DNA of 32,623 nt from Lachnospiraceae bacterium (GTDB lineage Bacteria > Bacillota > Clostridia > Lachnospirales > Lachnospiraceae): contig JAGBEV010000063.1 in assembly GCA_017936785.1 (NCBI GenBank), forward strand, positions 1 through 32,623. The letters are read 5' to 3'. Position 1 is the stretch's first letter, and each line of letters starts with the position of its first letter. Shown here in pieces: positions 13,284 through 17,580 of the stretch. The translations under genes and the position numbers were made by a program. The notes beneath the pieces were generated by a model that saw nothing but the letters and a program-made list of their open reading frames with translations, was not told the DNA's origin and made no database searches.

Positions 13284-13454
13284 TTATTCTGCTGAAATAG
13301 CACCTGTAGGGCACTGACCTGCGCAAGTACCACAATCGATACATTTGTCAGGATCGATTTCAAATTTGCCGTCTCCCATGCTGATTGCGCCAACAGGACA
13401 AGCTCCTTCGCATGCGCCACAAGCTACACAAGCGTCACCAATTTTAAATGCCAT
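13284..13454 (-). CDS. 2[4Fe-4S] ferredoxin
   Basis: A 56-residue clostridial-type ferredoxin. Two cluster motifs are complete: C-x2-C-x2-C-x3-CP at Cys9, 12, 15, 19 and at Cys38, 41, 44, 48, in a clear internal repeat (ACVACGACEGACPVGAI and KCIDCGTCAGQCPTGAI). It is a low-potential electron carrier of the cytoplasm. An AAGGAGGA site precedes the ATG. It has its own promoter 60-85 bases upstream and lies just downstream of pflA on the same strand; pyruvate formate-lyase activase needs a low-potential one-electron donor, so this ferredoxin is a plausible partner, although it could equally serve general fermentative metabolism. Confidence 0.96.
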   Translation of the reverse strand: MAFKIGDACVACGACEGACPVGAISMGDGKFEIDPDKCIDCGTCAGQCPTGAISAE

Positions 13455-13511
13455 AATCATATCCTCCTTAGAAATATAAAACTTGATAAATTATTATCAA
13501 TCCATAATGTT

Positions 13512-13595: not shown

Positions 13596-14366
13596 TCAAT
13601 TATGATGGGTGATTCCCAGCTCTGCACGGCGTTTGCGGATACCGTTTAAAATAAATTCTTTTTTCTCCGGAATCAGCTTTTTATCCATAGGCGGGACATC
13701 TGCCAGCACATAGTCAATGCCAAGCTCTTTATATTTCTTCTTTGCCATATCATGGTAAGGAAGAACATCCAGGGCTTTCAAATTTGTGAACTGACCGATA
13801 AAATATCCCAGCTTGTAAAGGGATTCCTCATCATCTGTAATGCCGGGAACTACCACATGCCTGATCCACATATCTACTTTCTTTTCATTCAGATAGGCAG
13901 CAAAGGCAAGAATGCCGTCATTAGGCTGTTTTGTCAATTCTTTATGCTTTTCAGGATCAATATGTTTGATGTCCAGCATTACCAGATCGGTTAATTCCAT
14001 CAGTTTATCAAGTTTCTTATTATATTCCGTATTATCAGGTTTATATGCAATACCGGAGGAATCAATACAGGTGTGGATTCCCCGTTCCTTGCACAAAGTG
14101 AATAATTCTGTTAAGAAATCTATCTGCATCAATGGTTCGCCGCCGGTAACAGTAATGCCGCCGCCATTAGCATAAAAAGGTTTATTCCTTTCGTATTGTT
14201 CAATGATCTCAGAAGCTTCCATGATAGTGCCGCCGGTCATAGGCCATGTGTCGGGATTGTGGCAGTAGGCACACCTCATAGGACAACCCTGCACAAATAC
14301 AACAAAACGTGTACCCGGTCCGTCAACAGTACCAAAACTTTCTAAAGAATGAATTCTTCCACTCAT
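13596..14366 (-). CDS. pflA: Pyruvate formate-lyase-activating enzyme (radical SAM)
   Basis: A 256-residue radical-SAM enzyme that abstracts a hydrogen from the glycine of the PFL radical domain, using S-adenosylmethionine and a [4Fe-4S] cluster. The PFL-activase form of the cluster motif is present, C-x3-C-x2-C at Cys28, Cys32 and Cys35 (GCPMRCAYCHNPDTW), together with the GTVDGPGTRFVVFVQG lead-in and the TVTGGEPL segment. AAAGGAAG precedes the ATG. It is on the same strand as the split pfl genes but separated from them by a terminator and served by its own promoter. Its target should be the separate 80-residue radical domain. Confidence 0.97.
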   Translation of the reverse strand: MSGRIHSLESFGTVDGPGTRFVVFVQGCPMRCAYCHNPDTWPMTGGTIMEASEIIEQYERNKPFYANGGGITVTGGEPLMQIDFLTELFTLCKERGIHTCIDSSGIAYKPDNTEYNKKLDKLMELTDLVMLDIKHIDPEKHKELTKQPNDGILAFAAYLNEKKVDMWIRHVVVPGITDDEESLYKLGYFIGQFTNLKALDVLPYHDMAKKKYKELGIDYVLADVPPMDKKLIPEKKEFILNGIRKRRAELGITHHN

Positions 14367-14434: not shown

Positions 14435-14463
14435 ATTATATCATATTATCAGGGAAAGAAAAA
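14435..14463 (-). promoter_or_regulatory. Probable promoter of pflA
   Basis: On the minus strand a perfect TATAAT (14440-14435) preceded by TGA makes an extended -10 element; the -35 position (TTTTTC, 14463-14458) is poor and overlaps the T tract of the preceding terminator. Confidence 0.55.
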
Positions 14464-14490
14464 GCCTTCCGGGATTTCCCGGAAGGCTTT
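14453..14490 (-). terminator. Terminator of the split pfl operon
   Basis: A 13-pair GC-rich stem (14461-14473 with 14478-14490) closes a four-base loop. On the minus strand it is followed by TTTTTCTTT. It lies 21 bases after the stop of the glycyl-radical domain gene. Confidence 0.92.
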
Positions 14491-14511: not shown

Positions 14512-14754
14512 TTAGATGGATTCGTGGAATGTTCTGCTGATAACGTCTGCCTGCTGTTCAGGTGTTAATTTGATGAAGTTAACAGCATAACCGGAAACAC
14601 GGATTGTTAACTGAGGATATTTCTCCGGATTTTTCTGAGCATCAAGTAAAGTGTCTCTGTTTAAAACATTAACATTTAAGTGATGTCCGCCTTTTGTAGC
14701 ATAACCATCTAATAAGTTTACCAAGTTATCAACCTGAGCTGTATTTTCTGCCAT
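14512..14754 (-). CDS. grcA: Stand-alone glycyl-radical domain of pyruvate formate-lyase (GrcA-like)
   Basis: An 80-residue protein equivalent to the C-terminal radical domain of an ordinary PFL. It contains [34 protein letters not shown] with the radical glycine Gly55, and the ending [13 protein letters not shown]. In E. coli PFL the same region is the last ~80 residues of one 760-residue chain; E. coli also has GrcA (YfiD), a spare domain that replaces a damaged one. Here the core gene lacks this domain, so this protein is likely an obligatory subunit rather than a spare. It has its own ATG and strong AGGAGGT site. It is the last gene of the operon, 71 bases after the small Cys protein, with a hairpin in the gap. 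Confidence 0.95.
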
Positions 14755-14780
14755 GATATATTACCTCCTGTTATAGTATA

Positions 14781-14803
14781 GGGGATGCACATGGGGCATC
14801 CCC
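14781..14803 (-). promoter_or_regulatory. Intergenic hairpin upstream of the glycyl-radical domain gene
   Basis: A perfect eight-pair, GC-rich stem GGGGATGC/GCATCCCC with a seven-base loop. On the minus strand it ends about 14 bases before the AGGAGG site of the radical-domain gene. No T run follows, so it is not an intrinsic terminator. It could be an mRNA-stabilising or processing element that sets the level of the radical domain relative to the core; that role is inferred. Confidence 0.6.
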
Positions 14804-14825
14804 CCGGTTTATTTTTGATTTAAGC

Positions 14826-15029
14826 TTATTCGTTTCCGTCTAAGCCTTCGTGAAGAGTAGGAACACTGCATGCAAATTGATTTTTGGAACACTCGGTGCA
14901 TCCCATAGTCTCTACGTTTTTAGAACCCTGTACCTTTTCATCAATGTCAACATTTACATGACCGATATTGTTTGCCATGCCATTATCAAGCTGTTTGATC
15001 AGGTCTTCAATCATTGCATTTTCGTCCAT
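14826..15029 (-). CDS. Small three-cysteine protein in the pfl operon, resembles part of a glycyl-radical domain
   Basis: A 67-residue protein of unknown function. The frame also allows a GTG at 15038, but AAAGGTG is spaced correctly only for the ATG at 15029. Its first half (IEDLIKQLDNGMANNIGHVNVDI) lines up with the start of the neighbouring radical domain ([23 protein letters not shown]): about 6 of 23 positions identical and 7 conservative, sharing the L-x2-LD helix and the H-x-NV strand. The [12 protein letters not shown] radical loop is absent; instead a tail carries Cys44, Cys47 and Cys54 (GCTECSKNQFAC). It lies 27 bases after the core gene and 71 before the radical-domain gene, so it is very likely cotranscribed. 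It may dock on the PFL core in place of the radical domain, or bind a metal or sense redox state; both ideas are inference. Confidence 0.85.
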   Translation of the reverse strand: MDENAMIEDLIKQLDNGMANNIGHVNVDIDEKVQGSKNVETMGCTECSKNQFACSVPTLHEGLDGNE

Positions 15030-15056
15030 AGCTTTCACCTTTCTAAATGTTATGAA

Positions 15057-17096
15057 TTATTTGTTTAAGTCGATCTCGATGTCGCCTGCAAATACCTGAT
15101 CTTCTTTACCAAGAGCTCCAGGAATGATTGTGAAGGTATTGGAGATACCGTCCTGAGCATCATTGAAAGGAAGTTTGGATACAGAAGATAAGGAAGCTAC
15201 TGCACCATGAGTATCACGTCCATGCATCGGGTTAGCACCAGGAGCGAAAGGCTGACCTTTTCTACGTCCGTCAGGTGTGTTACCTGTTGCTTTACCATAT
15301 GTTACGTTAGAAGTAATGGTAAGGATGGATGTTGTAGGAACACCATTTCTGTAAGTATGATGTCTTCTGATAGCTGTCATGAATTTGTGTACGATTTCCT
15401 GAGCGATCTCGTCTACGCGGTCATCATCATTACCGTATTTAGGGAATTCACCTGTTGTCTTGAAGTCAACGATGATTCCGTCTTCATCACGAACAACTTC
15501 TACTTTAGCATATTTAATAGCGGATAAGGAGTCAGCTACGATAGACAGACCGGCAACACCTGTTGCGAAGTAACGTTTAACGTCTCTGTCATGTAAAGCC
15601 ATCTGAGCTCTTTCATAGCAGTATTTGTCATGCATATAGTGAATGATGTTCAGAGTATTTACATATACATCTGCCTGCCATTCCATCATATCCATGAATT
15701 TATCCATTACATCATCATAATCAAGAACATCACCGGTAACAGGACGGTATTTAGGTCCAACCTGTTTCTTGGTAACTTCGTCGATACCGCCGTTTAAAGC
15801 GTACAGTAAACATTTAGCTAAGTTAGCACGAGCTCCGAAGAACTGCATTTCTTTACCGATTACCATAGAGGATACGCAGCATGCGATACCATAATCATCA
15901 CCGTGAGTTACTCTCATTAAGTCATCGTTCTCGTACTGGATGGAAGAAGTCTTAATGGACATCTTAGCACAGAATTTCTTCCAGCCTTCAGGTAATCTTG
16001 TGGACCAGAGAACTGTTAAGTTAGGTTCAGGAGAAGGTCCTAAGTTGTTTAATGTATTTAAGTAACGGAAGGACATCTTTGTAACCAGAGGACGTCCGTC
16101 AACACCAACACCACCGAGGGATTCTGTAACCCATACAGGATCGCCGGCGAAGATCTGGTTGTATTCAGGAGTACGAGCGAATTTGATGCAGCGTAATTTC
16201 ATGATGAAGTGATCAACGAATTCCTGAATCTGTTCTTCTGTAAATGTACCGTTCTTTAAATCTCTTTGAGCATAGCAGTCAAGGAATGTGGATGTACGTC
16301 CAAGGGACATAGCAGCACCGTTCTGCTCTTTAACTGCACATAAGTATCCGAAGTATACTGCCTGGATAGCTTCCTGTACGTTAGAAGCGGGTTTGGAAAT
16401 GTCGCATCCGTAGGAAGCAGCCATTTCTTTCATCAGCTTTAACGCTACCATCTGTTCGGAAAGCTCTTCACGAAGACGGATAACATCATCTGTCATAACA
16501 CGTCCTGTAGAAGCTTTCTGAGCTTCTTTGTCTTCGATCAGTCTGTCAATACCATATAAAGCAACACGTCTGTAGTCGCCGATGATACGTCCGCGTCCGT
16601 AAGCATCCGGAAGACCTGTGATGATATGGGAAGAACGACAAGCTCTCATTTCAGGATTGTAAGCATCGAAACAACCTGCATTATGTGTTTTTCTGTGTGT
16701 GGAGAAGAACTCGGAGATTTCGGGATCTACTGTATATCCGTTATCTGTACAAGCTTTCTCTGCCATACGGATACCACCGTAAGGCTGCATAGAACGTTTG
16801 AAAGGTTTGTCTGTCTGGAAACCTACGATAGTCTCTTTGCTCTTATCAAGGTATCCAGGACCGTGAGAAGTGATAGTGGAAACAACTTTGGTATCCATAT
16901 CAAGTACGCCGCCTGCTTCACGTTCCTTTTTCTGTAAGTCAAGCACCATGTTCCATAAATCTTTGGTGTTCTGTGTAGGTCCTGCTAAGAAACTCTCATC
17001 TCCCTCATAAGGAGTGTAGTTTCTCTGGATGAAGTCACGTACGTTGACTTCTTTGTCCCATTTGCCACCTACAAAATCTGTCCATTCTGGTCTCAT
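15057..17096 (-). CDS. pflB: Pyruvate formate-lyase catalytic core lacking the glycyl-radical domain
   Basis: A 679-residue formate C-acetyltransferase core that converts pyruvate and CoA to acetyl-CoA and formate. The PFL barrel is clear from the N-terminal WTDFVGGKW to the catalytic pair Cys406-Cys407 in GIACCVSSM (Cys418-419 in E. coli) and on to [20 protein letters not shown] and [17 protein letters not shown]. It then stops 18 residues after [10 protein letters not shown], where ordinary PFLs (about 740-760 residues) continue into the radical domain. The chain ends with a unique tail, [11 protein letters not shown]. Separate start codons and ribosome sites downstream argue against a frameshift. 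Strong promoter at 17188-17217; TAGGAGG lies before the ATG. Codon use is typical of highly expressed genes. Confidence 0.96.
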
Positions 17097-17187: not shown

Positions 17188-17217
17188 ATTATAGGTTAAA
17201 GGGAGTGGATACGTCAA
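17188..17217 (-). promoter_or_regulatory. Strong promoter of the split pfl operon
   Basis: On the minus strand TTGACG (17217-17212) and a perfect TATAAT (17193-17188) are spaced by 18 bases. Start point near 17181, giving a leader of about 85 bases with a small AACGG/CCGTT hairpin (17133-17149). Confidence 0.85.
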
Positions 17218-17388: not shown

Positions 17389-17580
17389 ATGACAGGAATT
17401 ACCAAAGACATGACGATCGGAGAAATCATCAGAATCAATGCGGATGTTATTCCCGTTTTGATCAATGCAGGAATGCACTGCGTAGGATGCCCTTCTGCTC
17501 AGGGTGAGACTCTGGAAGAAGCTGCCATGGTACATGGAATGGATGTAGATGACCTGATGGCTAAGATCCAGGCATTATGA
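17389..17580 (+). CDS. DUF1858 domain protein
   Basis: A 63-residue protein made of one DUF1858 domain: [20 protein letters not shown], then [10 protein letters not shown] with a C-x2-C pair (Cys32, Cys35) and a helix of the form [12 protein letters not shown]. The same domain is found at the N-terminus of the ScdA/RIC iron-cluster repair family and next to redox enzymes in anaerobes; as a single protein its job is unknown. CGAGGAGG precedes the ATG. It is transcribed divergently from the pfl operon and ends at a bidirectional terminator facing mecA. Confidence 0.9.

Follow-up and report, generated by a model that had tools for sequence, protein, structure and literature searches.

A probable two-part pyruvate formate-lyase with a separate glycyl-radical subunit and a putative accessory protein in Lachnospiraceae

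We analyzed a 32,623-nt stretch of DNA from a Lachnospiraceae bacterium (GCA_017936785.1, contig JAGBEV010000063.1; hereafter the window), in which pyruvate formate-lyase (PFL) is very probably a working enzyme built from two parts that are both obligate, namely a core and a separately encoded glycyl-radical subunit. The locus as a whole is best explained, with good confidence from comparative sequence analysis, as encoding a two-part PFL that is activated by PflA, arose by an old gene fission and is joined by an accessory third protein. In many fermenters, PFL is among the main sources of acetyl-CoA and formate, and the radical domain is its oxygen-sensitive point. A natural split makes it possible to test the exchange of damaged parts, the movement of the domain between core and activase, and the additions that let a split enzyme work.

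The PFL locus and its genes

The genes are encoded on the minus strand in the order PFL core, 67-aa gene, 80-aa radical domain, terminator-like stem, pflA and small ferredoxin. The features of the locus, in window coordinates, were assigned as follows.

15057..17096, minus strand: PFL core without radical domain, 679 aa (TIGR01255; alignment to E. coli PFL 10-681)
15876..15881, minus strand: catalytic Cys406-Cys407 codons (both invariant across 40 aligned cores)
14826..15029, minus strand: middle gene, 67-aa apparent chimera of a radical-domain first half and a cysteine module (sequence models; dN/dS 0.155)
14928..15029, minus strand: middle protein residues 1-34, radical-domain-like half (hhalign and genome searches)
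14859..14900, minus strand: middle protein residues 44-57, cysteine module (invariant residues; likeness to core tails)
14512..14754, minus strand: separate glycyl-radical subunit, 80 aa, GrcA3-type (NF038360 at the cut-off; aligns to E. coli PFL 681-758)
14590..14592, minus strand: radical Gly55 codon (RVSGYAV motif)
14461..14490, minus strand: terminator-like stem 3' of the radical gene (13-pair stem, T-rich tail)
17188..17217, minus strand: candidate promoter of the core gene, TTGACG-18-TATAAT (11/12 matches, weak)
13596..14366, minus strand: pflA, PFL activase, radical SAM (TIGR02493, 304 bits, over cut-off)
13284..13460, minus strand: small 4Fe-4S ferredoxin (NF058577, over cut-off)
17389-17580, plus strand: DUF1858/hybrid-cluster-associated redox disulfide protein, encoded divergently to the core gene (64/78 inspected loci, some of them short)

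The core and middle genes are separated by 27 nt, and the middle and radical genes by 71 nt. The radical gene has its own ATG with AGGAGG 9 nt upstream; the middle gene starts at an ATG with AAAGGTG 6 nt upstream, and an alternative GTG start lies 9 nt earlier. Motifs resembling ribosome sites, scored with a loose motif list and without a shuffled control, preceded the start in 79/79 core genes, 75/80 middle genes and 78/79 radical genes of related loci. Core, middle and radical genes are likely carried on one transcript, since the terminator-like stem separates the radical gene from pflA; 7 such stems were found in the window versus 2.8 expected. Promoter-like sites numbered 15 versus 12.2 expected, and the candidate upstream of the core gene is hence a weak one. 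Among the 74 loci with room for further genes, pflA lies downstream on the same strand in 54 and the ferredoxin is present in 39; the ferredoxin is possibly the electron donor of PflA. A conserved hairpin between the middle and radical genes was considered and rejected: the window has one (-17.1 kcal/mol), and only 15 of 48 folded gaps gave a z below -2 against single-letter shuffles (78 loci were surveyed, of which 30 with a gap under 25 nt were left unfolded).

The core scored 1090.7 bits against TIGR01255 (cut-off 994.2), covering only positions 2-665 of the 744 in the profile, and 733 bits against PF02901. End-to-end alignment with E. coli PFL (PDB 1h16) placed the core on residues 10-681 and the radical subunit on residues 681-758, and Gly55 of the subunit corresponds to Gly734 when counted through the alignment. 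Both hallmarks of PFL are present, the adjacent Cys406-Cys407 pair within the 679-aa core frame and the RVSGYAV loop in the 80-aa partner gene; the two parts are encoded in separate genes and not in the single chain of PFL. These assignments agree with an earlier reading made from the sequence only, which had also placed a third gene between the two. That reading had ended the core at the linker directly after a certain 10-residue stretch, which needs correction, as 11 further residues follow. The radical subunit reached 158 bits against NF038360 (GrcA3) when searched as a protein, equal to the cut-off of 158, and 156.8 bits, below the cut-off, in the genome search; against TIGR04365 it scored 101.8 bits (cut-off 170). 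The dN/dS values relative to the window were 0.044 for the core (71/77 pairs usable), 0.068 for the radical subunit (52/71) and 0.155 for the middle gene (15/57). All three genes are under purifying selection.

A full-length PFL was not found in this genome with PF02901 or the full TIGR01255 profile, to which the split core alone matched. The assembly is 100% complete with an estimated contamination of 8.77%. The remaining PF01228 matches in the genome are a second radical domain and two proteins that appear to be NrdD-like. The second radical domain (79 aa) is not linked to the PFL locus and was found on contig C54 of this genome (G000; L234:2275-2514). Second free copies were seen in 9/56 split genomes of the family, this one included, among the matches listed. 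In 4/9 loci examined (L234, L235, L236, and L272), the copy lies near a gene that is presumably spoIIIAA-like.

Conservation and history of the split

In each of the 80 nearest loci, which are the top-ranked of 496 confirmed relatives and hence not a random sample, the core gene is followed by the middle gene, and a whole radical gene comes next in 78. In the other two, the radical gene is cut by the contig end in one and the contig ends before it in the other. The regularity of the arrangement and the low dN/dS rule out a sequencing or assembly error, as well as gene decay, as the source of the split. We then surveyed 150 Lachnospiraceae genomes from 149 genera. PFL over cut-off was detected in 112 of them, split in 56 and full-length in 59, with both forms in three (G085, G119, and G132), so that 53/56 split genomes have no full-length PFL. 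A free radical domain was detected in 60 genomes, namely the 56 split genomes and four more (G022, G060, G128, and G129) in which contig ends interrupt the PFL core and the middle gene is present. No free radical domain appeared among the matches listed for genomes with full-length PFL only. The short frames in G034 and G142 are full-length-type genes broken by contigs. The sequence-only proposal that the two-part enzyme is the normal form is supported by these counts and by two of the checks it had suggested, a genome search for full-length PFL and the gene order in relatives.

Two explanations would deny that the locus encodes a two-part enzyme. The radical gene could supply an ordinary spare part of the GrcA type to full-length PFL that oxygen has cleaved; its similarity to YfiD, its match to NF038360 at the cut-off and the NCBIfam name would suggest this, and the unlinked copy on contig C54 may be a spare supply. 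However, the genome has no detected full-length PFL to repair, the core itself is encoded without a radical domain, and among the matches listed for the 150 genomes the free domain never occurs alongside full-length PFL alone. We therefore rejected the ordinary spare part for this genome, where no full-length PFL was found, and consider it very improbable; since the free domain is never listed with full-length PFL alone, "GrcA3" appears to be a required subunit here. It is harder still to credit that a cell without use for PFL keeps the core as a remnant, either decaying or regulatory. The lack of a radical domain in cis is what such a remnant would show, but the core is strongly constrained (dN/dS 0.044), its catalytic cysteine pair is invariant in 40 cores, the radical gene is linked to it and pflA often is. 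An old gene fission, not decay, is the best explanation of the split.

The history of the split was examined in three trees. A quick tree of 86 rows grouped all 56 split cores with five fused PFLs in a single clade (SH-aLRT 100), separate from the other 25 fused PFLs; the distribution can be explained by three changes, a single fission and two re-fusions when the root is placed on the fused side. In a careful tree built from 35 hand-picked rows, the split rows were monophyletic in 0/200 bootstrap trees, and the AU test spoke against split monophyly (p 0.0196); with the 86-row tree, that test gave no rejection (p 0.122). Re-fusion of the group of L123, L125, L128, and L134 appears likely from these placements.

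The split is also found in other families. Among 391 genomes in a survey of the class, a GrcA3 match over cut-off was detected in 20, of which 16 are outside Lachnospiraceae, and all 17 loci fetched from other families (these 16 and one below the cut-off) were split. In a 114-row C-terminal tree requiring four changes, 16/17 of these rows fell within the same clade as the family's split rows, which points to horizontal spread of the split PFL. A fused PFL of another family (L261) joined the nested fused group. The 17th row, L258, sits on a long branch outside the main split clade and is possibly an independent fission; its core ends in LGKDD and has no cysteine module. Overall, the trees favor a single fission that spread in Clostridia and was twice reversed by re-fusion. 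The position of the middle gene between the other two is not fixed, as the order in L238 is core, radical domain and middle gene.

The middle gene and the cysteine tails of cores

Neither Pfam nor NCBIfam yielded a match to the middle protein up to E 1, and among PDB sequences, where no third protein was seen, there was only one unrelated match (E 0.66). The protein looks like a copy of the first half of the radical domain (the helix and the strand before the radical loop) joined to a cysteine module. Comparison of its first half with radical domains by hhalign gave E 3.4e-5 at a probability of only 45%. Stronger support came from the genome searches: positions about 3-34 of a model built from 27 middle proteins (A3) matched the starts of radical domains, both free and fused, in many genomes, with E down to 5.9e-7. 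Positions 47-66 of the same model matched two core tails (G092 and G018). C47, A53, C54, and P57 are invariant in 27 diverse rows, in which only two cysteines are invariant. Three cysteines spaced C-x2-C-x6-C are present in 99/110 middle proteins, close kin included. In the window, C54 lies 28 residues from the strand asparagine, equal to the spacing of Gly55 in the true domain, and other species vary. The middle proteins of L189 and L197 stop right after the first cysteines (GCTDCAK and GCTTCSQ) without the VPTL part.

The sequence-only reading had not noticed that the third gene combines half a radical domain with a cysteine module, nor that in many species without a middle gene the core carries a cysteine tail. 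We compared 55 split cores fetched from 55 family genomes. In 32, a middle gene is adjacent (L185 by ORF reading; shortened in L189 and L197) and none of these cores has a tail cysteine. In 21, there is no adjacent middle gene and the core ends in a tail with two or more cysteines, from which the radical-like half is absent. The remaining two (L212/G130 and L227/G002) have neither, and a middle gene is located elsewhere in the genome. The number and spacing of tail cysteines vary (C-x4-C, C-x-CC, CC, and others), and a re-fused PFL (L132) carries TCGCEEVTC between core and radical domain. A model of the second half of the middle protein scored 17 of 34 tails above the best of 680 shuffled tails (11/21 family cysteine tails and six from other families). 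The other 17 did not exceed the shuffles, including 10/21 family cysteine tails; 13/17 of them have CxCC, CC or no cysteine. For the non-matching cysteine tails, kinship with the module is indicated by place and cysteines only. On the tree, middle gene and tail were exchanged several times (8 changes of the middle-gene label, at least 4 of them forced by well-supported branches).

Because a like module is now free and now fused to the core, we think that it probably acts at the core; our confidence is set a little lower than it might have been since only 11/21 family tails match the module by sequence. The module is locally absent from 4/17 split loci of other families (L242, L251, L252, and L258), and the middle-gene model detected no middle gene elsewhere in these four genomes, one of which is only 82% complete. 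An essential catalytic role of the module is disfavored because of these four loci. As far as we could see, neither the third protein nor its alternation with core tails has been described, and the protein family brought up here has no name in Pfam or NCBIfam.

Known systems and a possible mechanism

The split enzyme shares with canonical PFL (PflB, TIGR01255; E. coli 1h16) the core, the catalytic cysteine pair, the radical loop and the activase, and differs in that two genes encode the chain, divided near the position of E. coli residue 681. YfiD/GrcA (TIGR04365, PDB 6owr) is likewise a free-standing radical domain that docks on the PFL core. It has about 60 disordered N-terminal residues with the shared stretch starting at 66, whereas the subunit described here has about 18 with the shared stretch starting at 19; YfiD rescues a damaged full-length PFL, whereas here no full-length PFL was found. 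For split genomes, the NCBIfam name of NF038360 (autonomous glycyl radical cofactor GrcA3) seems misleading, as its co-occurrence with split cores speaks for an obligate subunit. In 56 of the 112 PFL-bearing family genomes sampled, the annotated autonomous cofactor is thus indicated to be an obligate subunit. The chains of PDB 38la and 38lb, both titled "Formate acetyltransferase," match the core and are not among the 34 radical-domain matches; the tail of 38lb starts GECDMCEM with two cysteines visible. They seem to be split cores, so such cores are probably already known to others, and no paper on a natural split PFL, the third protein or PDB 38la/38lb was found among the best matches of broad queries in the open-licence PMC literature.

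4-Hydroxyphenylacetate decarboxylase and benzylsuccinate synthase have small subunits that are small cysteine-containing partners of glycyl radical enzymes. To our knowledge these lack a radical-domain half, which the middle protein has; no sequence match of the middle protein to known small subunits of this kind was found in Pfam, NCBIfam, or PDB.

In the mechanism proposed by analogy with E. coli PFL and YfiD, PflA would generate the glycyl radical at Gly55, most likely with the small subunit docked to the core, and this radical would then be transferred to Cys406/Cys407 of the core. Damaged radical subunits could be exchanged, and the third protein would be an accessory whose cysteine module may serve as a guard, a plug or a recognition element. 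In E. coli, an artificial split consisting of PFL 1-695 and YfiD 61-127 had wild-type activity once activated (kcat 204 per s), with weak binding and poor activation (PMC8683613). Formate production by PflB with its own glycine replaced was supported by GrcA (PMC12338860). Swapping of damaged radical domains, which the sequence-only reading had proposed, is plausible and would fit the second unlinked copy in 9/56 split genomes. Its further suggestion, that the domain could leave the core freely for activation by PflA, is doubtful, as E. coli YfiD/GrcA was not activated unless the PFL core was present (PMC8683613).

The role of the third protein can be read in several ways. Our best guess, a tentative one, is that the module is a thiol guard or placeholder at the radical slot of the core, which it would hold or protect during the absence of the radical subunit. 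A bolder and doubtful version would make the middle protein a decoy radical domain, with the docking half kept and a cysteine-proline loop in place of the glycyl loop, which would plug the slot, shield or quench the active-site cysteines and permit exchange of the radical subunit without loss of the core; a core dimer could possibly hold the true domain in one half and the decoy in the other. The third protein or core tail might instead serve chiefly in assembly or recognition and restore affinity for the radical subunit, as residues 696-733 do for cleaved E. coli PFL. The first half of the middle protein is the same radical-domain segment, and PMC8683613 describes these residues as a recognition element, in whose absence binding of YfiD to the core was undetectable and activation 32-fold lower. 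But 21/55 split cores keep the cysteine tail alone, so that the cysteine part is the more constant one, and we consider recognition as the chief role possible though rather unlikely. That the module forms a zinc or iron-sulfur site, as in the small subunits of other glycyl radical enzymes, is improbable: the C-x2-C-x6-C spacing common among middle proteins would suit it, but only two cysteines are invariant in the 27 diverse ones, the tail spacing varies and no family match was obtained. A fixed metal site was rejected since the cysteine spacing is too variable.

A degenerate stretch resembling the middle gene was also seen on contig C38 of this genome (L233, about 1880-2011; E 2.7e-5 and 4.8e-5), in which HGCC replaces the usual module.
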